Shown one piece after another: positions 44,314 to 62,124 of a DNA stretch of 64,000 nucleotides. Position 1 is the stretch's first letter. Every line of letters begins with the position of its first letter. This stretch comes from Serinicoccus profundi. Lineage in GTDB: Bacteria > Actinomycetota > Actinomycetes > Actinomycetales > Dermatophilaceae. Location: NCBI RefSeq assembly GCF_008001015.1, contig NZ_CP042862.1:2604001-2668000 (forward strand), given 5' to 3'. A program made the position numbers and the translations under genes. Under the pieces are notes generated by a model that saw only the letters and a list, made by a program, of their open reading frames with translations, did no database searches and was not told the origin of the DNA.

Positions 44314-44396
44314 CGCCCCAGCGTAGGACGCCCCCCGCCCCGAGCGCCCCGTCCTCCACAGGCTCGACCATCGTGAGGACGCCGAGTATGCCCGCC

Positions 44397-44575
44397 GCAC
44401 CAACCTGAGCAAGCCGAGTCCTCCGGCTGCACCAACCTGAGCAAGCCGAGTCATCCGGCTGCACCATGGCCATGCTGCAGCGTGCAGACCCAGCTTGCTC
44501 AGGTCCCACATGGGCATCGCAGGCTTGCCCAGGTGCCGAGTGCGCATCGCGGGCGTGCCCAGGTCGGCAGAGTGT
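44397..44575. repeat. Inverted tandem repeat with ACCTGAGCAAGC core (family C)
   Basis: Between the GPP34 and HMG-CoA lyase genes (277-bp gap). Plus-oriented units begin at 44397, 44429 and (degenerate) 44461, exactly 32 bases apart, with core ACCTGAGCAAGC. Minus-oriented units with GCTTGCYCAGGT begin at 44493, 44523 and 44553, 30 bases apart. Both sets together can fold into a long imperfect hairpin. Confidence 0.75.
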
Positions 44576-45529: not shown

Positions 45530-45556
45530 GGCCTCAGCGTCTCAGATGGACGTGAC

Positions 45557-45716
45557 CCACCGAGCGCCGCAGATGGTCGCCCTCACACCCACCGAGCGCC
45601 GCAGATGGTCGCCCTCACACCCACCGAGCGCCGCAGATGGTCGCCCTCACACCCACCGAGCGCCGCAGATGGTCGCGCTGACACCCACCGAGCGCCGCAG
45701 ATCGTTGGATCCGAGC
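45557..45716 (+). repeat. 32-bp phased array, 5 plus-oriented units (family A)
   Basis: Units start at 45557, 45589, 45621, 45653 and 45685, exactly 32 bases apart. Each has CCACCGAGCGCCGCAGATGG followed by TCGC and an 8-base less conserved segment. The fifth is slightly degenerate. The 86 bases to the next array (45717-45802) show no gene. Confidence 0.92.
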
Positions 45717-45802
45717 CCGAGCAAGCAGCGGACGCTGCCTCGACGGCGCACCCGCCGTGCACCGGCATACTCAGAGATCGGCCGCGATCGTCATCTCTGC
45801 CA

Positions 45803-45962
45803 GCGACCATCTGCGACGCCCAGTCAGCGAACCAGCAACCATCTGCGACGCCCAGTCAGCGAACCAGCAACCATCTGCGACGCCCAGTCAGCGAACCAGC
45901 AACCATCTGCGACGCCCGGTCGGTGAGACAGCGACCATCTGCGACGCCCGGCGGGTAGGTCA
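45803..45962 (-). repeat. 32-bp phased array, 5 minus-oriented units (family A)
   Basis: Units start at 45803, 45835, 45867, 45899 and 45931, again exactly 32 apart, reading GCGACCATCTGCGACGCC on the plus strand. The last unit ends on the ribH stop codon, so the array is the beginning of the rib operon 3' region and can pair with the plus array 87 bases away. Confidence 0.92.
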
Positions 45963-46421
45963 GCGCAGCGCGAGGGCGGTCGCGATCGCCGCGGTCGCCG
46001 CCTCGTGCCCCTTGTCCTCCGAGGACCCGGGCAGCCCCGCCCGGTCGAGGGCCTGGGCCTCGTCGTCGCAGGTGAGGACCCCGAAGCCGACGGGCACACC
46101 CGTGTCGATGCTCACCTGGGTCAGCCCGGAGGTCGCCGCCTGACAGACGTAGTCGAAGTGCGGCGTCCCGCCCCGGATGACCACGCCGAGCGCGACGACG
46201 GCGTCGGCGCCCTCCCGGGCCAGGCGGGCGGCGGCCACCGGCAGCTCGAAGCTGCCCGGCACCCGCACCTCCCGCACGCCCTCGACGCCCGCGTCGGCCA
46301 GTGCCCGTCGGGCGCCGTCGAGCAGGCCGTCCATGACGGTGGTGTGCCAGGACGCGGCTACGACGACGACCCGCAGGCCGCGTCCGTCGACAGTGATCGT
46401 GGGTGCTCCGGCGCCGCTCAT
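45960..46421 (-). CDS. ribH: 6,7-dimethyl-8-ribityllumazine synthase
   Basis: Penultimate riboflavin enzyme; condenses the ribD product with the 3,4-dihydroxy-2-butanone phosphate made by RibBA. Visible motifs: [16 protein letters not shown] near residue 20, [11 protein letters not shown] near residue 53 and [13 protein letters not shown] with the catalytic histidine near residue 88. 153 residues, normal. AGGAG precedes ATG 46421, which overlaps the ribBA stop. Confidence 0.96.
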
Positions 46422-47737
46422 GCTGTGCTCCTCGTGTCGTGCGTGTGGGGTGCTGCTGTGGTGGGCAGTGGCTCGTGAGGCCCGTCGCCCGCGAACCCCT
46501 GGCCCGCAGGTTCGGTAGCGGGTGACGGTGCGGCCGACAGGTGCGGCGTGTGGCCGAGACGCTCCACCTTGGTGCGCAGGTATGCCGTCGCCTCGGCGGG
46601 CGCGGGGCGCCCCGATGGCACCGTCTCGGCGACGGTGAGCCCGAGGTCCGCGAGTGCCGCCACCTTGTCCGGGTTGTGGGTGAGCAGCCGCAGCGGCCGA
46701 TCTGCGAGACCGAGGTCCTCCAGGACGGCGGCGGCGACGGAGTAGTCCCGGGCGTCCACCGGCAGCCCCAGCGCCTCCTGCGCGGCGACGGTGTCGAGTC
46801 CCCCGTCCTGCACGGCATACGCGCGCAGCTTGTCGATGAGTCCGACCCCTCGCCCCTCGTGCCCGCGCAGGTAGACCACCGCGCCGCCCTCCCGGGCGAT
46901 GCGGGCGAGAGCGTCCTGCAGCTGCGGGCCGCAGTCGCACCGCCGCGAGCCGAGCGCCTCCCCGGTCAGGCACTCGGAGTGGACGCGCACGAGCGGGCTC
47001 GGGCCCGGATCGGGGCGCCCCAGGAGGGCGAGGTGCTCGGTGCCGGTCACGAGATCGCGGTATCCGTGCACGACGAGCTCACCGTGCTCGGTCGGCAGGG
47101 TCGAGCTGGCGAGCCGTTGCACCCGGTCGTACCGCTGGCGGTGGGCGACCAGCTCGTCGATCGTCAGGACCGGGAGGTCATGCTCGGCGGCGAGCGCGTG
47201 CACCTGCGGCCCGCGCAGCATATCGCCCCGGTCGTCGACGAGCTCACCGATGACACCGACCGGCTCGAGACCGGCGAGCCGGCACAGGTCGACGGTGGCC
47301 TCGGTGTGGCCTGGGCGGGCAAGGACTCCCCCGGCGCGGGCGCGCAGCGGGATGAGGTGGCCGGGGCGGCGCAGGTCCGCGGGCCGGGTCGTGGGGTCGG
47401 CGAGCACGCGCGCCGTGCGGCACCGGTCGGCGGCGCTGATGCCGGTGGTCACCCCCTCGGCGGCGTCCACGGTGATCGTGTATGCCGTGCGCAGCTCGTC
47501 CTCGTTGTCCCGCACCATGATCGGCAGCTCGAGACGGTCGGCGACTTCCGGAGGCATCGGCGCGCACAGGAAGCCGGAGGTGTGACGCACCGCCCAGCCG
47601 GTCCACTCCGGGGTGAGGGTCTGGGCGGCCAGCACGACGTCGCCCTCGTTCTCCCGGTCCTCGTCGTCGAGCACGAGCACGGGTCGACCCTCGCGCAACG
47701 CCATGACGGCGGCCTCGAGTCGGGGCGAGAGGCTCAT
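46418..47737 (-). CDS. ribBA: Bifunctional DHBP synthase / GTP cyclohydrolase II
   Basis: Fusion enzyme making both riboflavin precursors. The RibB half (1-210) has [13 protein letters not shown] and TTGISAADR; the RibA half shows the zinc motif [20 protein letters not shown] and [11 protein letters not shown]. After the core there are about 50 residues of Ala/Pro/Thr-rich tail. The ATG at 47737 overlaps the ribE stop; the open frame upstream is inside ribE. Confidence 0.95.
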
Positions 47738-48348
47738 GACCCGGCCTCCGCGGGGGCGAGGCGGGAGTCGAGCAGGCGCTCGGCATACTTCGCGAGCACG
47801 TCGACCTCGACGTTGAGCGCCTCCCCCGGCGTGCGTCGCCCGAGGGTCGTGAGGTCCAGCGTGGTCGGGATGAGGGACACCTCGAACCAGTCCGCTCCCA
47901 CCGCCGACACCGTGAGCGACACCCCGTCGAGGGCGACCGACCCCTTGTGCGCGACATACCGCGCGAGGTGGGGCGGGAGGGCGAGGCGGACGACCTCCCA
48001 CTTCTCGCCGGGCGTGCGGGACAGCACCGTGGTGGTGCCGTCGACGTGGCCCTGGACGATGTGCCCGCCGAGCCGGCCGGTGACCGGCAGCGAGCGCTCG
48101 AGGTTGACCGGGTCGCCCGCGGCGAGCGCGCCGAGGGTGGTGACGGCGAGGGTCTCGGCCATGACATCGGCGGTGAAACCGTCCTCGGTATGCCTCGTCA
48201 CGGTCAGGCAGACGCCGTTGACGGTGATCGAGGCGCCGTGGGTGGCGTCACTGGCCACGAGCGGGCCGCGGATCTCGACGACGCTGGAGTCGGGGCCGTC
48301 GGTGCGGGAGACGAGCGTGCCGAGCTCCTCGACGATGCCGGTGAACAT
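47734..48348 (-). CDS. ribE: Riboflavin synthase alpha chain
   Basis: Dismutates two molecules of 6,7-dimethyl-8-ribityllumazine to riboflavin. Two similar lumazine-binding domains begin at MFTGIVEELGT and at GGHIVQGHVDG, the second half repeating the fold. 204 residues, normal. Start overlaps the ribD stop by one base; third-to-last gene of the operon. Confidence 0.95.
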   Translation of the reverse strand: MFTGIVEELGTLVSRTDGPDSSVVEIRGPLVASDATHGASITVNGVCLTVTRHTEDGFTADVMAETLAVTTLGALAAGDPVNLERSLPVTGRLGGHIVQGHVDGTTTVLSRTPGEKWEVVRLALPPHLARYVAHKGSVALDGVSLTVSAVGADWFEVSLIPTTLDLTTLGRRTPGEALNVEVDVLAKYAERLLDSRLAPAEAGS

Positions 48349-49507
48349 CAGTCCTCCTGGGGGGTGGGGTCTGGGGTGGTGGAGGTCGCCTGCGTGCTGG
48401 ACGTCGACGTGGCGGGGTCGCTGGTGCTGTCCGCGGCGGTCCCGCCTGCGGTGGGCCGGAGCCGCAGCTGCAGGTCGGGGCCGAGCCGGGTGAGGTCGAC
48501 CAGGTCGAGCCGGGCGGCGTCGCTGATCGTGGTGATGCCGAGGTCGGGCACGGCGAGGGGGCCGGCGCCGAGGAGCGCGGGGGCGAGATGGACGAGCAGC
48601 TCGTCGACGAGCCCGGCCCGCCAGAACGCTCCGCCCAGCGTGGGCCCGCCCTCCAGGAGCACGCTGTGGACGCCGCGCTCGCGGAGCTCGTCGAGCACCC
48701 GGGCCGGGTCATGGGTGCGCAGATGCAGCACCGCGCCGCCCTCCGCAGACAGGGCACCGCCGGCGGCGAGGGCCAGCGCCGACCCCGCGGGCAGGTCGCG
48801 CTCCCCCACGACGACACGCAGGGGCTGGTCGGCCAGCAGGGTGCCGTCGGCGTCGCGGGCGGTGAGGCTGGGGTCGTCGGTGAGGGCGGTACCGGTGCCG
48901 ACGAGCACGGCCCCGACCTGGGAACGCACCTGGTGGGCGGCCCGGCGGGCCTCCGGCGAGGTGATCCACCGGCTGGTGCCGTCGGCGGCGGCGACCCGTC
49001 CGTCCAGGGTGCTGGCGACCTTCCACGTCACGTGGGGCCTCCCGAGCCGGGCCGCCCGCGCCCAGTCGGCGACGAGGTCCTCGGCCCCGGGGTGCGGCTG
49101 GTGGTCGACCCGCACCCGGCGGACGTCAGCGTCCGGGCACCGCCGCCGGCGCGCGTGGGGTCGGCGACGGCATACACGACGTGGGCGACGCCGGCCTCGA
49201 CGAGCGCCGTCGCGCAGGGAGGGGTGCGGCCGTGGTGGGAGCAGGGCTCGAGGGTGACGACGGCGGTCGCGCCCGCTGCGGCGGGTCCGGCGGCCGCAAG
49301 CGCAGCGGCCTCGGCGTGCGGGGTGCCCGCCCCGCCGTGGTGACCCTCGGCGAGGGTCGTGCCGTCGGGCGCGAGCAGGACGCAGCCGACCCGCGGGTTG
49401 GGGTCGTGGAGGGGGCCACGGCGGGCGAGCGCGACGGCACGGTCGAGGGCAGCCGCGATGGCGGCGGGGGGCGCGATGCGCCCGGGAGCGTGGGTGGTGC
49501 CCGTCAC
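48348..49507 (-). pseudogene. ribD: Riboflavin deaminase/reductase, single-base frameshift as assembled
   Basis: First gene of the rib operon. Deaminase half (from GTG 49507): zinc-binding HAEAAALAAAG and LEPCSHHGRTPPC. Reductase half (to 48348): PHVTWKVASTLDGRVAA and VLLEGGPTLGGAFW. The frame is lost at 49115-49117, where a C run is one base short; adding one base restores SAGVRVDHQPHPGAEDLVADWA. The start GTG has GGAGAGGA upstream. The C-terminal ~35 residues are Ser/Thr/Pro-rich. In a one-copy riboflavin pathway this lesion would cause auxotrophy, so a read error is likely. Confidence 0.9.
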
Positions 49508-49624
49508 CGGCGTCCTCTCCTGGTCAGCCCGGGGACGGACGAGGGAGGTTCGCAGGGAGGGCGGGTGCACGGCGCCCGGCGACGGCAGATGCCGACGGCC
49601 CGGGCGACGGGACGTCCCGTCGAC

Positions 49625-49752
49625 CCTCGCGCTGCCTCCCATCCGGACTTTCACCGTCGGTCCCGGAGTTTCACCAGGTCAACCGGCCGCTGGCTGCGGC
49701 CGGGTCGCGGACTGTCACCGCCGGTTCGGACTTGCACCGACCCCGGAGCGCG
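49625..49752 (-). promoter_or_regulatory. FMN riboswitch (RFN element)
   Basis: On the minus strand the conserved blocks appear in order: GGGGTCGGTGCAAGTCCGAA, CCGGCGGTGACAGTCCGCGA, a variable hairpin, GGTGAAACTCCGG, and GACGGTGAAAGTCCGGATGG, closing with GAGGCAGCGCGAGG. It lies about 120 bases before the ribD start and should repress the operon when FMN is high. Confidence 0.95.
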
Positions 49753-49794
49753 TATGTCGTTCCCCGCCAGTCTAGCTCTCGCCCGCCCCATCCC

Positions 49795-49890
49795 CCACCG
49801 AGCGTCGCAGATGGTTGCCAGGACACCCACCGAGCGTCGGAGATGGTCACCAGGACAGTCACCGGGCGTCGCAGATGGTTGCCAGCGTGA
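49795..49890 (+). repeat. 32-bp phased array, 3 plus-oriented units (family A)
   Basis: Units start at 49795, 49827 and 49859. They share ACCGRGCGTCGSAGATGGT. The array begins 40 bases beyond the riboswitch, that is, in the promoter-side region of the rib operon. Confidence 0.9.
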
Positions 49891-49918
49891 CCACGGGCGA
49901 CACCCGGTCGGGCCGTGC

Positions 49919-50078
49919 ACGACCATGTGCGACGCCCGGTCGGGTCGAGGACGACCATCTGCGGCGCTCGGTCAGGCCAGGCGCGACCATCTGCGACGCC
50001 CGGTCAGGCCAGGCACGACCATGTGCGGCGCTCGGTCAGGCCGTGAGCGACCATCTGCGGCGCTCGGTCGGAGGGGGT
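49919..50078 (-). repeat. 32-bp phased array, 5 minus-oriented units (family A)
   Basis: Units start at 49919, 49951, 49983, 50015 and 50047 with the plus-strand core GACCATSTGCGRCGCYCGGT. Only 28 bases separate it from the plus array. It ends about 70 bases before the XPB helicase start, so both divergent promoters must lie in or beside the arrays. Confidence 0.92.
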
Positions 50079-50134
50079 GGTTGGGTGCTGGCGCGGGTTG
50101 GCATTGGGCGCCGCGGAATGCGGAGGGCGCGGCA

Positions 50135-50140
50135 TACCGT
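50135..50140 (+). promoter_or_regulatory. Possible -10 element for the XPB helicase gene
   Basis: TACCGT (inside a GGCATACC word) ends 10 bases before ATG 50151; a TAGGTC follows it. No ribosome binding site is seen, so a leaderless or near-leaderless mRNA is likely. Confidence 0.35.
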
Positions 50141-50150
50141 TAGGTCCACG

Positions 50151-51839
50151 ATGAATGGCCCTCTGATCGTCCAGTCCGACAAGACCCTGCTCCTCGAGGT
50201 CGACCACCCCGACGCCGAGACGGCGCGGCGCGACATCGCGCCCTTCGCCGAGCTCGAGCGCGCGCCCGAGCACGTGCACACCTACCGCGTCACCCCGCTC
50301 GGCCTGTGGAACGCCCGCGCGGCCGGCCACGACGCAGAGCAGGTCGTACACGCGCTCGTCGAGCACAGCCGCTACCCCGTGCCCCAGGCCCTGCTCGTCG
50401 ACGTCGCCGAGACGATGGCGAGGTATGGCCGGCTCACCCTCACCAAGGAGTCGCTGACCGGGGAGGACGAGCCGGTCCTCGTCCTGCGCACGACCGACCG
50501 CGCCGTGCTCGCAGAAGTGTTGCGGCACAAGAAGATCAGCCCCCTCATCGGCGACCGGGTGGATGAGGACACGGTGCGGGTGCACGCCTCGGAGCGGGGC
50601 CATCTCAAGCAGGAGCTGCTCAAGGTGGGGTGGCCGGCGGAGGACCTCGCCGGCTACGTCGACGGGGAGGCGCACCCGATCGACCTCGACACCACCGACT
50701 GGTCGCTGCGGCCCTACCAGCAGCAGGCGGTCGACGGCTTCTGGGACGGCGGCTCCGGCGTCGTCGTCCTGCCCTGCGGCGCCGGCAAGACCCTCGTCGG
50801 CGCCGGCGCGATGGCCCGCTCCTCGACGACGACCCTCATCCTCGTGACCAACACGGTGAGCGCCCGCCAGTGGCGTGAGGAGCTGCTGCGGCGCACGACG
50901 CTCACCGAGGACGAGATCGGCGAGTACTCCGGCTCCCGCAAGGAGATCCGCCCCGTCACGATCGCGACCTACCAGGTGCTCACCCTCAAACGGAAGGGCA
51001 TCTACCCCCACCTCGACCTGCTCGACGCCCGCGACTGGGGGCTCATCCTCTACGACGAGGTGCACCTGCTGCCGGCGCCGATCTTCCGGATGACCGCCGA
51101 CCTCCAGGCGCGCCGCCGCCTCGGGCTGACCGCGACGCTCGTCCGCGAGGACGGCCGTGAGTCCGACGTCTTCTCCCTCATCGGCCCCAAACGCTTCGAC
51201 GCGCCGTGGAAGGACATCGAGGCGCAGGGCTACATCGCCCCGGCCGACTGCGTCGAGGTGCGGGTGACGATGTCGGAGTCGATGCGGATGGCGTATGCCG
51301 TCGCCGAGCCCGAGGAGCGCTACCGCTTCGCCGCGTGCGCGCCGGCCAAGGACGACGTCGTCGACCGGCTCGTGGAGCGCCACCGGGGCCAGCCGACGCT
51401 GGTCATCGGGCAGTACCTCGACCAGCTCGAGCAGCTCTCCGGGCGGCTCGACGCGCCGCTCATCACCGGTGAGACGACCGTCGCGCAGCGCCAGGAGCTC
51501 TTCCGGCAGTTCCGCGAGGGCGAGATCACGCTCCTGGTGGTGAGCAAGGTCGCCAACTTCTCCATCGACCTGCCCGAGGCCAGCGTCGCGATCCAGGTGT
51601 CCGGCACCTTCGGGTCCCGCCAGGAGGAGGCTCAGCGGCTGGGTCGGGTGCTGCGCCCCAAGGGCGACGGGCGGACCGCCCACTTCTACACCCTCGTCGC
51701 GCGGGACACGGTGGACGCCGAGTTCGCCGCCCACCGCCAGCGCTTCCTCGCCGAGCAGGGCTACGCCTACCGGATCGTGGACGCCGACGACCTCGGCGAG
51801 CTGGCCGAGCTGGGCGCCCCCGGGCAGCCCGGCAGCTGA
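50151..51839 (+). CDS. XPB/Rad25-type DNA repair helicase
   Basis: Superfamily 2 3'-5' DNA helicase of 562 residues. N-terminal damage-recognition-like domain about 1-170, then Walker A LPCGAGKTLVGAG near residue 215, DEVH box LILYDEVHLLPA near 300, LGLTATLVREDG, and motif VI EEAQRLGRVLRPKG near 495. Bacterial XPB homologues occur in actinobacteria and unwind DNA in repair-like processes. Its usual neighbour (Helicase_C_3 protein) is at 34-36 kb here. ATG 50151 is the first in-frame start after the repeats; upstream open frame is repeat-derived. Confidence 0.93.
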   Translation: MNGPLIVQSDKTLLLEVDHPDAETARRDIAPFAELERAPEHVHTYRVTPLGLWNARAAGHDAEQVVHALVEHSRYPVPQALLVDVAETMARYGRLTLTKESLTGEDEPVLVLRTTDRAVLAEVLRHKKISPLIGDRVDEDTVRVHASERGHLKQELLKVGWPAEDLAGYVDGEAHPIDLDTTDWSLRPYQQQAVDGFWDGGSGVVVLPCGAGKTLVGAGAMARSSTTTLILVTNTVSARQWREELLRRTTLTEDEIGEYSGSRKEIRPVTIATYQVLTLKRKGIYPHLDLLDARDWGLILYDEVHLLPAPIFRMTADLQARRRLGLTATLVREDGRESDVFSLIGPKRFDAPWKDIEAQGYIAPADCVEVRVTMSESMRMAYAVAEPEERYRFAACAPAKDDVVDRLVERHRGQPTLVIGQYLDQLEQLSGRLDAPLITGETTVAQRQELFRQFREGEITLLVVSKVANFSIDLPEASVAIQVSGTFGSRQEEAQRLGRVLRPKGDGRTAHFYTLVARDTVDAEFAAHRQRFLAEQGYAYRIVDADDLGELAELGAPGQPGS

Positions 51840-51950
51840 GCAGTCAGGGCCCGGCGGCTCGGCCGTCGGTCCCGCCCACGACGTCGACGATCGGCGACAC
51901 GCGCAGCGAATTCCCAGCAGAACTCCAGACTGCGCCCTCAGGATGGGTGT

Positions 51951-52658
51951 ATGACCGCGAGCCAGACCGAGCCGGAGGCCACGCTCCTCGTCGTTGAGGA
52001 CGAGACCAACATCCGCGAACTGCTGACCACGAGCCTGCGTTTCGCGGGCTTCGCCGTCCACGCCGCCGCGGACGGCCGCGCGGCCCTGCAGCTCTCCGGC
52101 GAGCACGACTTCGACCTCGCCGTGCTCGACATCATGCTCCCGGACATGGACGGCTTCACCGTCACCCGCACCCTTCGCGAGCGTGGCCTGGACCTGCCGA
52201 TCGTCTTCCTCACCGCCAAGGACTCCCTCGACGACAAGATCAAGGGGCTCACCGTCGGCGGTGACGACTACGTCACCAAGCCGTTCAGCCTCGAGGAGGT
52301 CGTGGCCCGCATCCGCGCCGTGCTGCGCCGGACCCGGGTGGCCGACGAGGACGACGACCACGCCCTGCGGGTGGCCGACCTGGAGCTCGACGAGGACAGC
52401 CACGAGGTGCGCCGGGCCGGCAAGGTCATCGAGGTCTCCCCCACCGAGTTCAAGCTGCTGCGCTACCTCATGCTCAACCCCGGCCGGGTGCTGTCCAAGA
52501 GCCAGATCCTCGACCACGTGTGGGACTACGACTTCCGCGGCGAGATGAACATCGTCGAGTCCTACATCTCCTACCTGCGCCGCAAGATCGACGTCGTCGG
52601 CGAGCCGCTGATCCACACCAAGCGCGGCGTCGGCTACGTCCTGCGCGAGCCGCGCTGA
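51951..52658 (+). CDS. OmpR-family response regulator
   Basis: 235-residue transcription factor. Receiver domain with acidic pair EDE near residue 16, phospho-acceptor Asp in VLDIMLPDMDG near 60, and the conserved lysine in DDYVTKPFS near 110. Winged-helix DNA-binding domain from ~140 ends with the recognition-helix region NIVESYISYLRRKID. It precedes the histidine kinase by 16 bases and the HtrA gene follows, so it probably controls an envelope-stress type set. Confidence 0.92.
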   Translation: MTASQTEPEATLLVVEDETNIRELLTTSLRFAGFAVHAAADGRAALQLSGEHDFDLAVLDIMLPDMDGFTVTRTLRERGLDLPIVFLTAKDSLDDKIKGLTVGGDDYVTKPFSLEEVVARIRAVLRRTRVADEDDDHALRVADLELDEDSHEVRRAGKVIEVSPTEFKLLRYLMLNPGRVLSKSQILDHVWDYDFRGEMNIVESYISYLRRKIDVVGEPLIHTKRGVGYVLREPR

Positions 52659-52674
52659 GCGGCATACCCGCTCC

Positions 52675-54165: not shown

Positions 54166-54210
54166 GAGACACCCAGGCTGTGCCGACCTGAGGGTGATTG
54201 CATCGGCACC

Positions 54211-55536
54211 ATGACCACCCCACAGCACGACCCGCAGGACCTCGCCTCCGGCCGGCAGCACCCCACGCCCGGGTACCCCGCCGGCACGACCGGTCCCCAG
54301 CGCGACGGCGACCCCACCGGACCGGTCCCCACCGATGCGACCGCGCCCGTGCCCGCGCAGACCTCCACCGTGGCTGCACCGTCCACGCCCCGCCCCCGCG
54401 AGCGCCGACGCTACGGCGACATCGCCGTGGCCAGCGTGCTCGCGGCGCTGCTCGCCTCCGGCGGCACCTTCGCCGCGGTGGAGCTCGCCGGTGACGACAC
54501 CAGCACGCAGAGCTCCAGCGCCGAGCAGGGTGCGGGCGAGCAGGCCAGCGGCGACGCCCGCGGCACCACCGTGTCCCTCACCGGCGAGCAGGACTGGGCC
54601 TCCATCGCCGAGGCCGTCACGCCGAGCACCGTCTCCATCTCGGTGGCCGGGATGGGCGGGGAGGGCTCCGGCTCCGGCGTCGTCTGGGACGACCAGGGGC
54701 ACATCGTCACCAACGCGCACGTCGTGGAGGGGGCCCAGCAGGTGCAGGTCATGGTGCCCGGCGGACGGTCCTACCCCGCCGACGTCGTGGGCTCCGACCC
54801 CTCCAGCGACCTGGCCGTCCTGCAGCTGGAGACGGTGCCCGACGACCTCACCCCGATCGCGGTCGGGGACGACTCGGCGCTGGGCGTCGGCGACCCGGTG
54901 ATGGCGGTCGGCAACCCCCTGGGCCTGTCCGGCACGGTGACCACCGGCATCGTCAGCGCCCTGGACCGACCGGTCACCACTCAGGGATCCAACGGCAACC
55001 CGGCCGACCCCAACGCCGCGGTCTACACCAACGCCATCCAGACCTCGGCCGCCATCAATCCCGGCAACTCCGGCGGTGCGCTCGTCAACGCCGCGGGCGA
55101 GCTCGTCGGCATCAACTCCTCCATCGCCTCGCTCTCCTCCGGCGCCACCGGGCAGAGCGGCTCGATCGGCATCGGCTTCGCCATCCCCTCGGGCAAGGTG
55201 CAGCTCATCGCCGACCAGCTCATCGAGACCGGCACCGCGACCCACGCCTTCCTCGGGGTGGGCCTCGATGACGCGCAGGCCGAGGTGGACGGTGCCGTGC
55301 TCACCGGGGCCGCGGTCACCCAGGTCGAGACCGGCTCGCCCGCCGACGGGGCCGGCCTGCAGTCCGGCGACCTCATCGTCGGCATCGACGACGAGCAGAT
55401 CACCAGCGCCACCGCCCTCATCGGCCAGGTCCGCGAGCGCGGCGCCGGTGACGAGGCCCGCGTCGCCTACATCCGTGACGGCGAGCGCGCCGAGGTCACG
55501 GTCACCCTCACCACCCGGCCGGACGAGGAGGGCTGA
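54211..55536 (+). CDS. HtrA/DegP-type trypsin-PDZ serine protease
   Basis: 441-residue surface protease. A Pro/Thr-rich cytoplasmic N-terminus of about 70 residues is followed by one membrane helix (IAVASVLAALLASGGTFAAVEL) and the protease domain with catalytic His in HIVTNAHVVEGA, Asp in DPSSDLAVLQLE and Ser in NPGNSGGALVN, then a single PDZ domain from about 345 (GSPADGAGLQSGDLIVGI). Immediately downstream of the two-component genes, whose regulator likely controls it; HtrA proteases degrade misfolded envelope proteins. Confidence 0.93.
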   Translation: MTTPQHDPQDLASGRQHPTPGYPAGTTGPQRDGDPTGPVPTDATAPVPAQTSTVAAPSTPRPRERRRYGDIAVASVLAALLASGGTFAAVELAGDDTSTQSSSAEQGAGEQASGDARGTTVSLTGEQDWASIAEAVTPSTVSISVAGMGGEGSGSGVVWDDQGHIVTNAHVVEGAQQVQVMVPGGRSYPADVVGSDPSSDLAVLQLETVPDDLTPIAVGDDSALGVGDPVMAVGNPLGLSGTVTTGIVSALDRPVTTQGSNGNPADPNAAVYTNAIQTSAAINPGNSGGALVNAAGELVGINSSIASLSSGATGQSGSIGIGFAIPSGKVQLIADQLIETGTATHAFLGVGLDDAQAEVDGAVLTGAAVTQVETGSPADGAGLQSGDLIVGIDDEQITSATALIGQVRERGAGDEARVAYIRDGERAEVTVTLTTRPDEEG

Positions 55537-55624
55537 GGGTCAGCGGGCCGGCGCGGGCCGGCGCGGGTCGGTGCGCGTCGGGCCCAGCTCGGGGGCCTTC
55601 CAGCCGCCCACTGTCGGCCGGTTG

Positions 55625-55700
55625 GTCCACTGTCGTCCGCGATGTCATCTGTCGGCCTCCTCGAGGAGGCTGACAGATGACATCGCGGCTGATAGTTCAC
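55625..55700. repeat. Long hairpin of 19-bp units around CCTCGAGG (family B)
   Basis: Convergent gap between htrA-like and ABC-F genes. Units such as CCGCGATGTCATCTGTCGG and the inverse CTGACAGATGACATCGCGG face each other across CCTCGAGG; 35-base arms match at about 29 positions, including 17 in a row. A third plus-oriented unit begins near 55618. It probably acts as a bidirectional terminator. Confidence 0.8.
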
Positions 55701-55716
55701 GGCGCGGCGTACGCCC

Positions 55717-57420
55717 TCACCGGGACCGGTCGACCCGGCCCTCGTCCCAGACCGGGGCGCTGCTCTCGCGGACCGTGCCGTCGGCGCCGAAGACGACGAA
55801 GCGGTCGAAGGAGGAGGCGAACCAGCGGTCGTGGGTGACCGCCAGGACCGTCCCCTCGAAGGCCTCCAGCCCGTCCTGCAGCGCCTCGGCCGAGTGCAGG
55901 TCGAGGTTGTCCGTGGGCTCGTCGAGCAGCAGCAGGGTCGCGCCGGACAGCTCCAGTAGGAGGATCTGGAAACGCGCCTGCTGCCCGCCCGACAGCGAGT
56001 CGAAGCGCTGCTCACCGGCCCGGGCCAGCTCGTAGCGGTCCAGCACCCGCGACGCCTCCTCCCGCGGCAGCCCGCGCCGGTGCTCATCGCCCCGGTGCAG
56101 GATCTCCAGCAGGGTCCGACCGACGAGGCTCGGGTGGTCGTGGGTCTGGGCGAACCACCCTGGCCGCACCCGTGCGCCGAGCCGGGCCACGCCAGTATGC
56201 GCCACCGGCGCCGGCACGACGTCGCCGACCGGGCGGTGCTCGGTCTCGGGGTCGCTGCCGCCCGCGGCCAGCAGCCGCAGGAAGTGCGACTTGCCCGAGC
56301 CGTTGGACCCCAGGACGGCGACGCGGTCGCCGTACCAGACCTCCAGGTCGACCGGCCTCATCAGCCCGGTCAGCTCCAGCCCCTCGCAGATCACCGCGCG
56401 CTTGGCCGTGCGCCCGCCCCGCAGCCGCATCGTCACCCGCTGCTCCTGCGCCACCACCTCCGGCGGCCCGGCCTCCTCGAACCGGCGCAACCGGGTCTGG
56501 GCGGCGTGGTACTGGCTGGCCATGTCGGCGTTGTAGGCCGCCTTGGCCTTGTAGCGCAGCATGAGGTCGCGCAGCTTGGCGTGCTCCTCGTCCCAGCGCC
56601 GCCGTGCTTCCTCCAGCCGGTCGTTGCGCTGCTGCCGCGCCTGGTGCCAGGTCGTGAAGCTGCCGGGGTGCACCCACAGCGTGCTGCCGGCCCCACCGGG
56701 CTCGAGCGTCGCGACCCGGGTCGCCACCTGCGCCAGCAGCTCGCGGTCGTGGCTGACGAGCAACACCGTCTTGGGGCTGGCCCGCAGCGCCTCCTCCAGC
56801 CAGCGCTTGGCCGGCACGTCGAGGTAGTTGTCCGGCTCGTCCAGCAGCAGCACCTCGTCCGGCCCGCGCAGCAGCGCCTCCAGCGCCAGCCGCTTCTGCT
56901 CCCCGCCGGACAGGGCCTGGGTGCTGCGCCACTGGGCGCGCTCGAACGGCATACCGAGCGCGGCGACCGTGCAGACGTCCCACGCCGTCTCCTGCTCGTA
57001 GCCGCCGACATCGGCCCAGTCCGCGAGCGCCTGCGCGTAGGCGAGCTGGGCGGGTTCGTCGTCGACCTCCATCATCGCCAGCTCGGTCGCCTCCAGCGCC
57101 TGCGCCGCGGCGCGGATCCGCGGCGGCGCGACCGAGACCAGCAGGTCCCGCACCGTCGGCGCGCTCTCCCCCGGAGCGACGTCGCGGCCCATCGTCCCGA
57201 TGAACTGCGCCATCACTCCCAGGCCGCCACCACGCGAGATCGAGCCCTCGTGCGGGCGCAGCTGGTCGGCCACGATCCGCAGCAGCGTGGTCTTGCCGCT
57301 GCCGTTGGGCCCGACGAGAGCCACCCGCGCACCCTCGCCGACGCGCAGGCTGACGTCGTGCAGCAGCGGGCGGCCGTCGGGCAGGTGGAAGCCCACCCCG
57401 GCGATCTCGACGTGTCCCAT
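55717..57420 (-). CDS. ABC-F family ATPase
   Basis: Soluble tandem-ABC protein (567 residues) of the kind that acts on the ribosome (EttA/antibiotic resistance group). Half 1: GPNGSGKTTLL, LSGGEQKRLALE, LLLDEPDNYLD. Half 2: [35 protein letters not shown]. The linker (about 265-320) is Arg/Lys/Glu-rich and long, as in ribosome-acting members. There are no membrane segments. ATG 57420 is chosen because the frame upstream lacks conserved sequence. Whether it gives resistance or works in translation quality control cannot be decided. Confidence 0.88.
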   Translation of the reverse strand: MGHVEIAGVGFHLPDGRPLLHDVSLRVGEGARVALVGPNGSGKTTLLRIVADQLRPHEGSISRGGGLGVMAQFIGTMGRDVAPGESAPTVRDLLVSVAPPRIRAAAQALEATELAMMEVDDEPAQLAYAQALADWADVGGYEQETAWDVCTVAALGMPFERAQWRSTQALSGGEQKRLALEALLRGPDEVLLLDEPDNYLDVPAKRWLEEALRASPKTVLLVSHDRELLAQVATRVATLEPGGAGSTLWVHPGSFTTWHQARQQRNDRLEEARRRWDEEHAKLRDLMLRYKAKAAYNADMASQYHAAQTRLRRFEEAGPPEVVAQEQRVTMRLRGGRTAKRAVICEGLELTGLMRPVDLEVWYGDRVAVLGSNGSGKSHFLRLLAAGGSDPETEHRPVGDVVPAPVAHTGVARLGARVRPGWFAQTHDHPSLVGRTLLEILHRGDEHRRGLPREEASRVLDRYELARAGEQRFDSLSGGQQARFQILLLELSGATLLLLDEPTDNLDLHSAEALQDGLEAFEGTVLAVTHDRWFASSFDRFVVFGADGTVRESSAPVWDEGRVDRSR

Positions 57421-57572
57421 GGGTCCATTGTCAGGGCTGGGGTATGCCGCCCCTACCGGTTTTCGCGGCCCGTGGGAGGCGACGAGATGCCACCGCGACA
57501 GCCCGGCATTGATACCTTGACGTCTGCGTGCGTCCAGCCCCGTCACGCCCCCCGACGTTCTAGGAGTCACCC

Positions 57573-58790
57573 GTGAAGATCGCTGTGCTCGGCGGTGACG
57601 GTTTCTGCGGCTGGCCCGCGGCGCTGCACCTGTCGGACCTCGGCCACGACGTGGTCATCGTCGACAATCTCATCCGGCGGCGGATCGACGAGGAGCTCGG
57701 GGCCTCCTCGCTCACCCCGATCGCGAGCCCGCAGGAGCGCCTCGACGCGTGGGCCGAGGTCGGCGGCCGACCGATGGAGTTCGTCGAGCTGGACCTCGCG
57801 CAGGACTACGACGGCCTGCTCGCCTTCCTGGTGTCCGCGCGGCCGGACGCCGTCGTGCACTTCGCCGAGCAGCGCTCCGCGCCCTACTCGATGAAGTCGC
57901 CGGGGCACAAGCGCTACACCGTCGACAACAACACCAACGCGACCCACAACGTGCTGTGCGCGCTCGTCGAGAGCGGGCTCGACGCGCACCTGGTCCACCT
58001 CGGCACCATGGGCGTCTACGGCTACGGCACGGCCGGTATGGCGATCCCCGAGGGCTACCTCGACGTCGAGATCGCCGGGGACGACGGCACGCGGGTGGAG
58101 CAGCAGATCCTCTACCCCACCAACCCGGGGTCGATCTACCACATGACGAAGTGCCTGGACCAGCAGCTCTTCGCCTACTACGCCAAGAACGACGCGCTGC
58201 GGATCACCGACCTGCACCAGGGCATCATCTGGGGCACCCACACGGAGCAGACGGTGCGCGACGAGCGGCTCATCAACCGCTTCGACTACGACGGCGACTA
58301 CGGCACGGTGCTCAACCGCTTCCTCATGCAGGCGGCGGTCGGCTACCCGCTCACCGTGCACGGCACCGGCGGCCAGACCCGCGCCTTCATCCACATCCGC
58401 GACATGGTCCGCTGCGTGCAGATCGCCCTGGAGAACCCGCCCACCGCCGGTGACCGGGTCAAGATCTTCAACCAGATGACGCAGACCCACCGGGTGCGCG
58501 ACCTCGCCGAGCTCGTCGCCCGGATCAGCGACGCCGAGGTCGAGCTGGTCCCCAACCCGCGCCACGAGGCGGCCGAGAACGAGCTGCACGTGCACAACGA
58601 GACCTTCCTCGACCTCGGGCTCGAGCCGACGCTGCTCGAGGAGGGCCTGCTCATGGAGGTCGAGGACGTCGCCCGGCGCTACGCCGACCGGGCCGACCTC
58701 GAGAAGATCCCCTGCACGTCCACCTGGACCCGCGCCCAGCAGGCCGGCGTGCCCGCCTCCCGCGGCTCTTCCGTCGAACGCACGGCCTGA
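57573..58790 (+). CDS. sqdB: UDP-sulfoquinovose synthase (SQD1/SqdB type)
   Basis: Short-chain dehydrogenase-like enzyme converting UDP-glucose and sulfite to UDP-sulfoquinovose, the head group donor of the sulfolipid SQDG. 405 residues. The N-terminus (GGDGFCGWPAALHLSDLGHD), the IVDNLIRRR segment, the SLTPI element and RSAPYSMKS closely follow SQD1; the catalytic YxxxK is in YHMTK near residue 190 with the conserved Thr in LGTMGVYGYGT. GTG 57573 follows TAGGAG. The next gene, 21 bases away, is the matching glycosyltransferase. Confidence 0.9.
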   Translation: MKIAVLGGDGFCGWPAALHLSDLGHDVVIVDNLIRRRIDEELGASSLTPIASPQERLDAWAEVGGRPMEFVELDLAQDYDGLLAFLVSARPDAVVHFAEQRSAPYSMKSPGHKRYTVDNNTNATHNVLCALVESGLDAHLVHLGTMGVYGYGTAGMAIPEGYLDVEIAGDDGTRVEQQILYPTNPGSIYHMTKCLDQQLFAYYAKNDALRITDLHQGIIWGTHTEQTVRDERLINRFDYDGDYGTVLNRFLMQAAVGYPLTVHGTGGQTRAFIHIRDMVRCVQIALENPPTAGDRVKIFNQMTQTHRVRDLAELVARISDAEVELVPNPRHEAAENELHVHNETFLDLGLEPTLLEEGLLMEVEDVARRYADRADLEKIPCTSTWTRAQQAGVPASRGSSVERTA

Positions 58791-58811
58791 GCCGGGCGAC
58801 GGCATACCCGC

Positions 58812-60008
58812 ATGCGCATCGCGCTCTTCACCGAGGTCTTCCTGCCCAAGGTCGACGGGGTCGTCACCCGCATCACCCGCACCCTGGACCAGCTGACCGA
58901 CCTCGGCCACGAGGCGCTCGTCTTCGCGCCCGGTGAGCCGCCGACGCACTACGGCCCGCACCGTGTCGTCAAGGTGCGCTCGGTGTCCTTCCAACCGTGG
59001 TACCCCGAGATCATGGTCGGGCTGCCGACGGCCCGGATCGCCCGCGAGATGCAGGCCTACCACCCCGACATCGTGCACGCGGTCAACCCCGTGTGGCTGG
59101 CGGCCTACGGCGTGATCTCGGCCCGACGGCGCAACCTGCCGCTGCTCGCGAGCTTCCACACCGACGTCCCGTCCTACACGACGCGGCTCGGCAACGGTCT
59201 GTCCGTGCTGCGCGCGCCCTCGCAGGCGTGGATCACCGGGATGCACAACCTCGCCGAGGTCAACCTGTGCACCTCGATGCAGATGGTGCAGCGGGCCCGC
59301 GAGGTCGGCATCCGCGAGGTCGACCTGTGGCCCAAGGCCGTCGACACCGTCGGCTACCACCCCTCCAAGCGCAGCGCGCAGATGCGCGACCGGCTCAGCG
59401 GTGGGCACCCGGACGCCCCGCTCGTGCTCTACGTCGGGCGGCTGTCGCGGGAGAAGGACCTCGACCAGCTGCTGGAGCCGATCCGCGCGCTCGCTCCTGA
59501 GGGGGTGCGGCTCGCGTTCGTCGGGTCCGGGCCGGCGCGGGAGGAGCTGGAGACGATGTTCGCCGGCACGCCGACCGTCTTCACCGGCTACCTCGCCGGG
59601 GAGGACCTCGCTTCGGCCTACGCCAGCGCGGACGCCTTCGCCTTCCCCTCGACGACGGAGACGCTCGGGCTCGTCGCGCTGGAATCGATGGCCAGTGAGG
59701 TGCCGGTCGTGGGCGCCCGGGCCGGCGGCATACCGTTCGTCATCGAGGACGGCGTCACCGGCTTCCTCGTGGAGCCGGGCGACACGACGGGGTATGCGGA
59801 CCGCCTGCGCCGGCTGCTCCTGGAGCCGGGGCTCAAGCAGCGCATGGGCGCCGCGGCCCGGGCGGACGCGCTGACGCACTCGTGGCGGGCCTCGACCGAG
59901 TCGCTCGTGGAGTCCTACGAGCTCGCGGTCGAGCGGCACGCCGGCCGCCGCCCGGTGCCCAAGCCGCTGCGTGCCCGGGCGCACCGCGACCTCCCGCCCC
60001 CAGGGTAG
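58812..60008 (+). CDS. sqdX: GT4 glycosyltransferase, sulfoquinovosyltransferase (SqdX) type
   Basis: 398-residue GT-B fold enzyme. N-terminal FTEVFLPKVDGVVTRITRTL is the SqdX/PimB-like donor-site motif; the sugar-nucleotide binding blocks are LYVGRLSREKDLDQLLEP near residue 215 and the ESMASEVPVVGARAGG plus E-x7-E region. It probably transfers sulfoquinovose to diacylglycerol at the membrane. GT4 homologues that make mannosylated lipids are very similar, so the specificity rests mainly on the adjacent sqdB. Start ATG follows GGCATACCCGC. Confidence 0.85.
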   Translation: MRIALFTEVFLPKVDGVVTRITRTLDQLTDLGHEALVFAPGEPPTHYGPHRVVKVRSVSFQPWYPEIMVGLPTARIAREMQAYHPDIVHAVNPVWLAAYGVISARRRNLPLLASFHTDVPSYTTRLGNGLSVLRAPSQAWITGMHNLAEVNLCTSMQMVQRAREVGIREVDLWPKAVDTVGYHPSKRSAQMRDRLSGGHPDAPLVLYVGRLSREKDLDQLLEPIRALAPEGVRLAFVGSGPAREELETMFAGTPTVFTGYLAGEDLASAYASADAFAFPSTTETLGLVALESMASEVPVVGARAGGIPFVIEDGVTGFLVEPGDTTGYADRLRRLLLEPGLKQRMGAAARADALTHSWRASTESLVESYELAVERHAGRRPVPKPLRARAHRDLPPPG

Positions 60009-60026
60009 GAGCCCCGCCCGACCATC

Positions 60027-60154
60027 CCACCGAGCGCCGCACATGGTCGCCCCGGGACCCACCGAGCGCCGCAGATGGTCGCTCTCACCCCGACCGAGCG
60101 CCGCAGATGGTCGCCCCACGCCCCACCGAGCGCCGCAGATGGTCGCCACATGTC
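60027..60154 (+). repeat. 32-bp phased array, 4 plus-oriented units (family A)
   Basis: Units at 60027, 60059, 60091 and 60123, core ACCGAGCGCCGCASATGGTC. Starts 18 bases after the sqdX stop and ends 30 bases before the possible -10 of the transporter gene. No inverted partner is adjacent. Confidence 0.92.
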
Positions 60155-60183
60155 GCTGCAGCAGCACGCGCCCACCACGGTGC

Positions 60184-60189
60184 TACCGT
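60184..60189 (+). promoter_or_regulatory. -10 element for a probably leaderless transporter mRNA
   Basis: TACCGT ends 7 bases before ATG 60197; no ribosome binding site lies between. Confidence 0.4.
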
Positions 60190-60196
60190 GCGGCCC

Positions 60197-61465
60197 ATGG
60201 TGATCGATGGGGAGACCACAACCGCGACCGAGCGCTCGACCTGGAGCAGCAAATGGGCAGCGATGGGGCCAGGGCTACTCGCGGCCTCGGCGGCCATCGG
60301 CGCCTCCCACCTCATCTCCTCCACCCAGGCGGGGGCCCTCTTCGGCTGGCAGCTGGTGTGGCTCATCGTACTCGCCAACGTGCTGAAGTACCCGTTCTTC
60401 CGGTTCGGCCCGCAGTATGCCGCCGAGACCGGCCGCAGCCTGGTCGAGGGCTACGCGCGGCGCGGCAAGGCATACCTCTGGGTGTTCTTCGTCCTGGCGG
60501 CGGTGTCGTCGGTCATCTCCACGGCGGGCGTCGCGCTGCTGTGCACCGTGATCTTCGCCTACCTGCTGCCGGCGTCCTGGGGGCTCGGGGTCCCGGTGCT
60601 CGCCGCCGCCCTGCTCGCGGTGACCTGGATGCTGCTCGTGGGCGGGCACTACACCGCGCTCGACGGCGTCACGAAGATCATCATGGCCGTGCTCGCGGTC
60701 TCCACGGTGGCCGCGGTGGTCATGGCCGCCAGCCAGGGGCCGGTCCGCCAGCCCGGGTTCGAGGACCCCTCGCCGTGGACGCTGGCGACGCTGCCCTTCC
60801 TCGTGGCCGTCATCGGCTGGATGCCCGCGCCGATCGAGATCAGCGCCCTCAACTCGCTGTGGGTCAAGGCCAAGGCCAACGGTCGGCGCCTCGCCGTGCG
60901 GGACGTCCTCTTCGACTTCAACCTCGGCTACACCGTCTCCACCGTGCTCGCGGTCTTCTTCGTCGGCCTCGGCGTCTTTGTCCAGTACGGCAGCGGACAG
61001 GAGCTGGAGATGGCCGGCGGCGCCTACATCCCGCAGCTCATGAGCATGTACGGCGCGGCGATCGGTCAGTGGGCCGTGCCGCTCATGGCGCTCATCGCCT
61101 TCGCCTGCATGTTCGGGACGGTCATCTCGGTCGTCGACGGGTATGCCCGCGCGTGCGCCGAGTCGCTGCGGCTCATCCGTGGCGGCGAGGAGATGAGCAG
61201 CCGTTCCAAGGACCTGTGGATCACCGGGATCTCGGTCATCGCCCTCGCGATCGTCGTCTGGATGAGCGCCTCCCTGGCCGACATGCTGCGCTTCGCGATG
61301 GTCAGCGCCTTCCTCACCGCGCCGGTCTTCGCGTGGCTGAACTTCTCGATCATCCGCAGCGAGCGGCAGCTGTCGAGCAGCATGCGGGTGCTGTCCTACG
61401 CCGGGCTGGTCTTCCTCATCGGCTTCACGCTGCTCTTCCTGGCCTCGCTGGTCGGCCTGCTCTGA
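60197..61465 (+). CDS. Nramp-related membrane transporter lacking metal-site motifs
   Basis: 422-residue protein with about 11 membrane helices and the overall Nramp pattern (GPGLL in TM1, ANVLKYPFFRFGPQYAAETG after TM2). In canonical Nramp the TM1 motif is DPGN and TM6 has MPH; here the corresponding places read AAIGASH and WMPAPIEISAL, so the metal ligands are absent. Such divergent members are annotated as Nramp-family but their substrate is unknown. It fills the space between two repeat arrays: one ends 42 bases upstream and the other begins two bases after its stop. Confidence 0.82.
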   Translation: MVIDGETTTATERSTWSSKWAAMGPGLLAASAAIGASHLISSTQAGALFGWQLVWLIVLANVLKYPFFRFGPQYAAETGRSLVEGYARRGKAYLWVFFVLAAVSSVISTAGVALLCTVIFAYLLPASWGLGVPVLAAALLAVTWMLLVGGHYTALDGVTKIIMAVLAVSTVAAVVMAASQGPVRQPGFEDPSPWTLATLPFLVAVIGWMPAPIEISALNSLWVKAKANGRRLAVRDVLFDFNLGYTVSTVLAVFFVGLGVFVQYGSGQELEMAGGAYIPQLMSMYGAAIGQWAVPLMALIAFACMFGTVISVVDGYARACAESLRLIRGGEEMSSRSKDLWITGISVIALAIVVWMSASLADMLRFAMVSAFLTAPVFAWLNFSIIRSERQLSSSMRVLSYAGLVFLIGFTLLFLASLVGLL

Positions 61466-61466
61466 C

Positions 61467-61626
61467 CCACCGGGCGTCGCAGATGGTCGCCCAGCGACCC
61501 ACCGAGCGTCGCAGATGGTTGCCCACCGGCCCACCGAGCGTCGCGGATGGTCGCCCACCGGCCCACCGGGCGCCGCAGATGGTTGTCCACCGGCCCACCG
61601 GGCGCCGCAGATGGTTCGCGCGCCAG
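61467..61626 (+). repeat. 32-bp phased array, 5 plus-oriented units (family A)
   Basis: Units at 61467, 61499, 61531, 61563 and 61595. The array occupies 160 of the 162 bases between two converging stop codons. Core ACCGRGCGYCGCRGATGGT; the interunit segments here vary but include CCCACCGGC twice. Confidence 0.93.
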
Positions 61627-61627
61627 G

Positions 61628-61933
61628 TCAGTCGTCGGAGAGGTATGCGTTGACCCGGTCCACCTTCTCGGTGAGTTGGCCGGCATACCCCGGTCGCAGG
61701 TCGGCCTTGAGCACGAGCGAGACGCGCGGTGAGTGGTGCGCGACGGCGTCGCACGCGGCCTTGACGACCGGTATGACCTCGTCCCATTCCCCCTCGATCG
61801 TGGTGAACATCGAGGTCAGCTCGTAGGGCAGGCCGGAGTCGCGGACGACCCGGATGGCGTCGGCGACGGCGGCGCTGACCGAGCCGGACTCGTCGGCGGA
61901 CTGGGTGGGAGCGACGGAGAAGGCGAAGAGCAT
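61628..61933 (-). CDS. Thiamine-binding (MTH1187/YkoF-type) protein
   Basis: 101-residue cytoplasmic ferredoxin-fold-like protein (PF01910 type), starting MLFAFSVAPTQS, with the family segments YELTSMFTTIEGEWDEVIPVV and RVSLVLKADLRPG. Relatives bind thiamine or pyrimidine precursors. It is a single gene bracketed on the left by plus-oriented and on the right by minus-oriented family A arrays. ATG 61933 has no strong ribosome binding site. Confidence 0.85.
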   Translation of the reverse strand: MLFAFSVAPTQSADESGSVSAAVADAIRVVRDSGLPYELTSMFTTIEGEWDEVIPVVKAACDAVAHHSPRVSLVLKADLRPGYAGQLTEKVDRVNAYLSDD

Positions 61934-61973
61934 GCCACCACGCTAGCCCGCGATCGGTATGCCGGCTCGAGCG

Positions 61974-62069
61974 GCAACCATGCGCGACGCTCGGTCGGAG
62001 CCAGGGCGACCATCTGCGACGCTCGGTCGGAGCCAGCGCAACCATCTGCGGCGCCCGGTGGGGGTATGG
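61974..62069 (-). repeat. 32-bp phased array, 3 minus-oriented units (family A)
   Basis: Units start at 61974, 62006 and 62038; the last runs into the TATGGT -10 of the HelD-type gene. Plus-strand core ACCATCTGCGRCGCYCGGT. Confidence 0.9.
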
Positions 62070-62070
62070 T
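62065..62070 (+). promoter_or_regulatory. Possible -10 element for the HelD-type helicase gene
   Basis: TATGGT, 54 bases before the ATG at 62125. It overlaps the last 32-bp unit. A GAGG ribosome binding site follows before the start. Confidence 0.4.
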
Positions 62071-62124
62071 GCTTCTCCCCCCTCCTCCCCACCCGCCGCT
62101 CCTGCTCCAGCGAGGTCTGCCGCG

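Follow-up and report, generated by a model that had tools for sequence, protein, structure and literature searches.

Short intergenic repeats of bacteria are usually ascribed to transposition or RNA hairpins. Plasmid iterons and partition arrays such as sopC are helically phased tandem direct repeats that nucleate protein assembly, and they occur as clusters beside a rep or par gene. Arrays of clustered regularly interspaced short palindromic repeats (CRISPR) join a conserved part to a variable one and often have a degenerate last unit, and the insertions of Rickettsia palindromic elements (RPE) are in-frame. RPE are short repeats inside protein genes, and repetitive extragenic palindromic (REP) elements are high-copy sequences of 20–40 bp, mainly intergenic and near 3′ ends, in convergent and unidirectional gaps, which sometimes lie in genes and sometimes supply the stop codon (PMC3733652). 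The repeat family described here was noticed in a 64,000-nt stretch of the Serinicoccus profundi genome (the window, C1:2604001-2668000 of a genome, G000, made up of one contig of 3,475,711 bp). Its units recur every 32 bp in short arrays at gene ends, and in our judgement there is an even chance that these arrays form a helically phased platform for a putative sequence-specific DNA-binding protein, commonest between convergent genes and acting as a boundary.

Seven arrays (5, 5, 3, 5, 4, 5, and 3 units) together contribute 30 units to the window, with a spacing of 32 bp throughout. This strict phasing, claimed in the original prediction, was recovered by a recount and by tandem-repeat detection with Tandem Repeats Finder (TRF), and the 17-bp core (≤3 mismatches) matches the window 32 times vs. 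3.65 ± 1.80 times in 100 shuffles (largest 10). None of the seven arrays is contained in a called gene. The gaps that hold them range, as had also been stated, from convergent (61470) through codirectional (45560/45803 and 60030) to divergent (49798/49919 and 61974). The arrays are the following:

45560..45708, plus strand: array of 5 units with a 32-bp period; 5′ end ~26 bp from the start codon of HMG-CoA (hydroxymethylglutaryl-CoA) lyase (minus strand); codirectional gap.
45803..45951, minus strand: array of 5 units; edge 3 bp from the ribH stop codon and 115 bp from the facing array 45560..45708; codirectional gap.
49798..49882, plus strand: array of 3 units in the divergent gap between ribD and an XPB-helicase gene.
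49919..50067, minus strand: array of 5 units facing 49798..49882, with a junction of 25 bp if a degenerate minus unit between them is counted; divergent gap.
60030..60146, plus strand: array of 4 units, in sense orientation, between a glycosyltransferase-like gene, whose stop precedes it by ~17 bp, and an Nramp-like gene; codirectional gap.
61470..61618, plus strand: array of 5 units that begins directly past the Nramp-like stop codon and fills a convergent gap.
61974..62058, minus strand: array of 3 units in a divergent gap, next to where an MTH1187-like gene starts.

The gap at 49.8 kb was read from the list of open reading frames, the gene caller having missed part of ribD. The deaminase and reductase halves of this gene (window 48348-49654, minus strand) are in different frames, so that it seems to carry a frameshift or an assembly error at this place. 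Rfam finds a flavin mononucleotide (FMN) riboswitch above gathering score ahead of the riboflavin genes (window 49626-49754, minus strand).

The unit is bipartite, ACCGRGCGYCG-NNN-RTGGTYGC, and its fuller form is asymmetric and ~24 bp long: CC[C/G]ACCGRGCGYCG, two to three free bases, and RTGGTYGCC. In S. profundi it reads CC[C/G]ACCGRGCGYCGC-AGA-TGGTYGC[C/T]C, with ~8 weakly constrained bases between units. A matrix scan of 47 stretches of this genome plus the window (~387 kb) gives 279 units in 79 arrays, six of them single units, vs. 0 matches to the reversed control over the same ~387 kb. The set collected from relatives comprises 335 units in 91 arrays, from 60 stretches of genomes G017, G021, G026, G028, G029, and G030. 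In this set most positions flanking the central triplet are nearly fixed, bar the R and Y positions; positions 12 and 13 are almost without information, 328 of the 335 units have a purine at position 14, and the spacer is free. Each such unit may be the site of a putative DNA-binding protein.

The family is abundant in S. profundi and narrowly distributed beyond it. At ≤2 mismatches the genome contains 352 copies (183 + 169), vs. 9 (5 + 4) for the reversed pattern. With the pattern CCGRGCGYCGCNNNTGGTYGC (≤1 mismatch), nine of 31 same-genus genomes are enriched, and the enrichment that the original prediction would expect elsewhere in the genome and in relatives is thus found. Copies number 323 in G000, 179 in G026, 150 in G028, 129 in G030, 116 in G017, 97 in G021, 91 in G029, 39 in G011, and 14 in G007. 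The other 22 genus genomes have 0–2 copies and 265 further genomes of the family or order 0–6, the reversed pattern giving 0–9. These nine genomes probably form one clade, because their Nramp-like proteins are 92–94% identical to the S. profundi copy and the next best is 76% identical. Among the matches listed, searches of wider genome contigs with the 17-bp core give single matches in scattered taxa. Five viral contigs have one match each, and array 45555-45702 has no match in phage and plasmid records. A literature search, covering titles and abstract openings with many journals outside its coverage, found no published description of this repeat.

The spacing rule extends to other loci. Units of the relatives with >1 mismatch were kept only if a neighbor lay near 32 bp, so claims about spacing use either detection without spacing information or the S. 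profundi matrix scan. With the former, direct neighbors <100 bp apart are spaced by 32 bp in 413 of 451 cases, by 33 in 32, by 31 in 4, and by 37 and 90 in one each, orthologous loci of several species being counted separately. With the latter, every spacing is 32 bp in 65 of the 73 arrays with more than one unit. Between genes the spacing is 32 bp in 183 of 185 cases in S. profundi (218 of 228 in the relatives), and inside genes it is 33 bp in 12 of 15 cases (14 of 16 in the relatives), the rest being 32; the counts for the relatives carry the bias of the neighbor filter. The claim of exactly 32 bp without exception therefore stands in the window and gives way beyond it, where in-gene spacing is mostly 33 bp.

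Seven of the 79 S. profundi arrays lie in genes; five were called automatically, and those of L200 and the plus array of L208 were assigned manually, using orthology and reading frame. That units never lie inside a gene thus holds for the window and fails genome-wide, the 33-bp spacing being of a frame-keeping length. Among the genes that host arrays are CobQ (NCBIfam match above cut-off) and, named from sequence, genes that are HisI-like, NadE-like, major facilitator superfamily (MFS) transporter-like, and lipoyl E2-like, and those of a CydC-like ATP-binding cassette (ABC) protein and an AAA protein. The idea that the encoded peptide matters was rejected, since arrays inside genes are found in several frames and on both strands. 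The lipoyl E2-like gene of L222 (about 2458-3977) is split into two open frames at the array.

Facing arrays follow a second rule. Within 260 bp, spacing-free detection finds the order plus-then-minus 31 times and minus-then-plus once, so that 3′ ends almost always face each other. All 18 unique loci with plus-then-minus units <75 bp apart fall at distances of 24–27, 35–36, 57, or 68 bp. Among periods of 6–20 bp, 10.7 fits best (R 0.87; p 0.0002 by jitter, the lowest value that 5000 trials allow), in a test on data overlapping those in which the classes had first been noticed. Orthologous gaps shift between classes: the junction of L217 is 57 bp in S. profundi and 36 bp in G026 and G028 (~two turns), and that of L207 is 36 bp in S. 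profundi and 24 bp in G026 (~one turn). At the 49.8-kb locus of the window the degenerate minus unit accounts for the added period. The 123-bp junction of L218 fits only modulo 32. Taking the center of GCG-Y-CGC as the reference point, junction centers of 32 and 43 bp would correspond to three and four turns, the lattice of the direct repeats; we infer this lattice rather than observe it, because other reference points also work.

Both rules favor proteins on double-stranded DNA. On a three-turn lattice (32 bp; mostly 33 in genes), bound proteins would share one helix face and could touch their neighbors, which may allow cooperative binding. A junction of ~25 or 36 bp keeps the rotational phase, so that two arrays meeting at their 3′ ends could join into one continuous assembly. 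The original proposal of a binding platform on one helix face gains support from the 32/33-bp rule, the junction classes, and the conserved positions.

Arrays are commonest between convergent genes. They occupy 23 of 50 convergent, 30 of 216 codirectional, and 8 of 50 divergent gaps in S. profundi, and 24 of 58, 35 of 220, and 14 of 61 in the relatives, counted without a length filter and including short operon gaps. This enrichment would also suit a topology hub, in which a general topology factor, gyrase for instance, has high-affinity sites at places of accumulating positive supercoils. Gyrase wraps a length of DNA comparable to the ~85–150 bp spanned by typical arrays of 3–5 units, but a specific site of 24 bp is unlike its known preference, and a universal enzyme would not be expected to have sites in only 9 of 31 genomes. 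Although positive supercoiling is enriched between convergent genes in Escherichia coli and yeast (PMC8360656), a topology hub of this kind seems to us most unlikely.

Where a 5′ end faces a stop codon, the array starts within 30 bp in 34 of 47 cases in S. profundi and 44 of 57 in the relatives. Exactly four bases separate stop and core in 9 of the 47 S. profundi cases, and TGA is the dominant stop before arrays, as in all genes. Platforms past stop codons might act as a roadblock or topological boundary separating neighboring transcription units. The same placement would fit a transcribed structured RNA or an intrinsic terminator, in which units or facing arrays, being inverted repeats that could pair, form hairpins at transcript ends. 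Folding argues against it: for 160 units drawn at random from the 614, z is −0.17/+0.29 (sense/antisense) for 70 S. profundi units and +0.09/+0.44 for 90 units of the relatives, which is no signal, and 58 S. profundi arrays are less stable than shuffles (+0.84/+0.74). The strongest association within the S. profundi core, at positions 4–8, is not of the base-pairing kind. In window 45500-62200, Rfam returns the FMN riboswitch and three sub-gathering matches, none of the four at an array, and 49 of 61 S. profundi array gaps have arrays on one strand only. A structured RNA, one of the roles first suggested, is thus left unsupported, and we regard this explanation as very improbable.

Positions are retained between species. 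Of the 73 array gaps of the relatives, 42 were placed on adjacent orthologs within S. profundi stretches and 31 were not placeable; in 41 of the 42 the S. profundi gap also holds an array. Across orthologous gaps, orientation is the same for 46 of 49 arrays, opposite for two, and one has no counterpart. Since the S. profundi stretches were picked for arrays, it is the comparison with control gaps that counts and not the raw fraction: among 92 gaps of the relatives without an array, 13 have one in S. profundi. Four-fold-site identity between the compared species is 0.58–0.69.

The main rival to a protein platform is a proliferating repeat without function: a selfish or purely mutational unit of ~32 bp, spread by some copying process, expanded in tandem, and tolerated mainly past stop codons. 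Its period would come from the copying mechanism, 33 bp being the nearest frame-keeping length. Arrays indeed differ in presence and size between species. By eye, CobQ has no units in G011 and G021, one in G017 and G028, three in G029 and G030, and four in S. profundi, in an alignment of seven species out of twelve genomes searched (G002, G003, G007, G025, and G026 were not caught by the anchor). The S. profundi NadE-like gene is 75 bp longer than that of G017 at its three antisense units. The several frames and both strands of in-gene arrays, the range of copy number from 14 to 323 among the nine genomes, and a placement past stops that resembles REP elements (PMC3733652) point the same way. 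So do the spacers, which in S. profundi mismatch at 0.38 within an array vs. 0.67 between arrays. On the other side stand the positions kept in 41 of 42 testable gaps despite 58–69% silent-site identity, the few junction distances that shift by about whole turns at orthologous loci, and an S. profundi triplet that is uniform without its adjacent spacer. Moreover, the Y1 transposase PF01797 was found in 0 of 31 genus genomes vs. 5 of 14 control genomes, other transposase families not having been searched; the mobile-unit role proposed at the outset is thus supported in part, by the variation between species but not by a Y1 (RAYT-type) transposase. Proliferation can account for growth and for insertions in genes but is a poor fit to the junction classes and to the conserved positions, and we consider it a tenable explanation of clearly less than even probability.

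The central triplet adds a further observation. The S. profundi regions were selected through core matches with AGA, and those of G017, G021, G028, G029, and G030 mostly likewise, so that statements on the triplet rest on neutral-pattern listings whose rows were counted by eye. There, AGA occupies 90 of 100 rows listed for S. profundi (of 221 matches; first part, forward strand), two of ~100 rows listed for G028, and none of the exact rows listed for G026, which mostly have YYG or GTG; several triplets per genome occur in the rows listed for G028, G021, G011, and G007. Between S. profundi arrays the triplet differs at 0.13 per site and the spacer at 0.67, and triplets differ between arrays at 0.45–0.55 per site in G026, G030, G028, and G017. 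Between S. profundi and the relatives, triplet and spacer differ at 0.63 and 0.59 in orthologous arrays and at 0.66 and 0.67 in non-orthologous ones. The core thus looks homogenized across S. profundi, and only there, without its spacers, which would fit selection by a binding protein or a process copying the core alone. Gene conversion of long tracts is disfavored, spacers not being common to different arrays. A more specific reading, doubtful but possible, is a clade-specific boundary system: a dedicated putative protein would bind phased arrays at gene ends, facing arrays would form one insulating filament, and in S. profundi the specificity would have settled on one triplet, with nearly all sites following.

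Several observations weigh against a phased protein platform. Among the matches listed, three G021 units (C1:1002222-1002332) have 45-bp spacing, and in-gene arrays suggest proliferation rather than precise placement. R stays at 0.78–0.87 for any period of 10–11 bp, so the junctions demonstrate discrete classes separated by about one turn (~11 bp) rather than many turns independent of each other; those of 57 and 68 bp equal 25 and 36 bp plus one period and may be only that. Distances of 115 bp in the window and of 144 and 176 bp at the glycosyltransferase locus fall outside the classes, and the order minus-then-plus occurs at one S. profundi locus (86 bp) and among rows listed for G028 and G011, apparently at one locus. 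Array 3′ ends that face a stop are likewise no more than 30 bp away in 24 of 47 cases in S. profundi and 18 of 40 in the relatives, and the strand bias in codirectional gaps is weak. The triplet is uniform in S. profundi only, the other genomes differing at the 0.45–0.55 per site given above. Two arrays of one block are reversed in orientation, one S. profundi gap lacks its array, and 13 of the 92 array-free gaps of the relatives carry one in S. profundi. Around the Nramp-like gene, five of the nine clade genomes have an array in the 5′ gap and one of the nine has one in the 3′ gap.

Other repeats were noticed as well. The Nramp-like 3′ gap of G007, G017, G021, G028, G029, and G030 (L291-L293, L295, L297, L298) has, instead of an array, a long inverted repeat with arms like GCGACTGCACCGGGTATGTCG. 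In G026, the gap before the Nramp-like gene (L296), which carries an array in five other species, is occupied by a tandem repeat of another kind and with a longer period. A second, rarer family, ACCTGRGCAAGCC, has a 30–32 bp period and facing copies with a center like CACCATGGCCATGGTG (window, L193, L220); it occurs at window 44367-44565 and in S. profundi near 635512 (L193) and 2888420 (L220), and is listed at 2806400. It has 11 exact copies in S. profundi and 0–3 in other genus genomes, where the reversed control gives 0–2. In another genus of the same family, G155 has five copies of CCGGGCGTCGGTGATGGTCGC, one mismatch off the pattern and perhaps part of a longer element.

The family follows a physical rule, with whole helical turns within arrays and discrete, turn-related junctions between them, and its places are kept despite the extensive divergence of silent sites. 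Should a protein read these arrays, they would amount to a boundary system in bacteria for which nature supplies hundreds of copies as well as variants in spacing, so that what repeats at convergent gene ends do could be tested directly. The near-uniform S. profundi triplet without common spacers would then be a natural case of sites following their protein.

Compared with known systems, the arrays share with REP elements and bacterial interspersed mosaic elements (GTAG and CGTC families) their size, copy number, intergenic 3′-end placement, frequent convergent gaps, and occasional position within genes or supply of a stop codon (PMC3733652). They differ in four respects. There is no sign of the palindromic stem-loop (8–9 bp stems in CGTC families), the 160 sampled units folding no better than shuffles. 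The position counts contain no conserved GTAG, and CGYC lies inside the core rather than as a terminal tag. The REP-associated tyrosine transposase (RAYT, a Y1 transposase), expected for GTAG and not for CGTC families, has no match in the 31 genus genomes, and the arrays have restricted junction distances. RPE likewise are short repeats inside protein genes (PMC3733652), whereas the repeats here are tandem, mainly intergenic, and without stem-loop signal. As in CRISPR arrays, a conserved part alternates with a variable one and, by eye, the last unit is often degenerate, but the variable part is ~8 bp and alike within an array (0.38 vs. 0.67 between arrays) rather than diverse, and the arrays are scattered over the chromosome. 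In contrast to iterons and sopC, the 79 arrays of the 47 stretches and the window are spread over the chromosome, without a known partner; what they share with these protein-nucleating sites is the direct repetition at whole-helix-turn spacing, 32 bp in 413 of 451 cases and 33 bp in 32.

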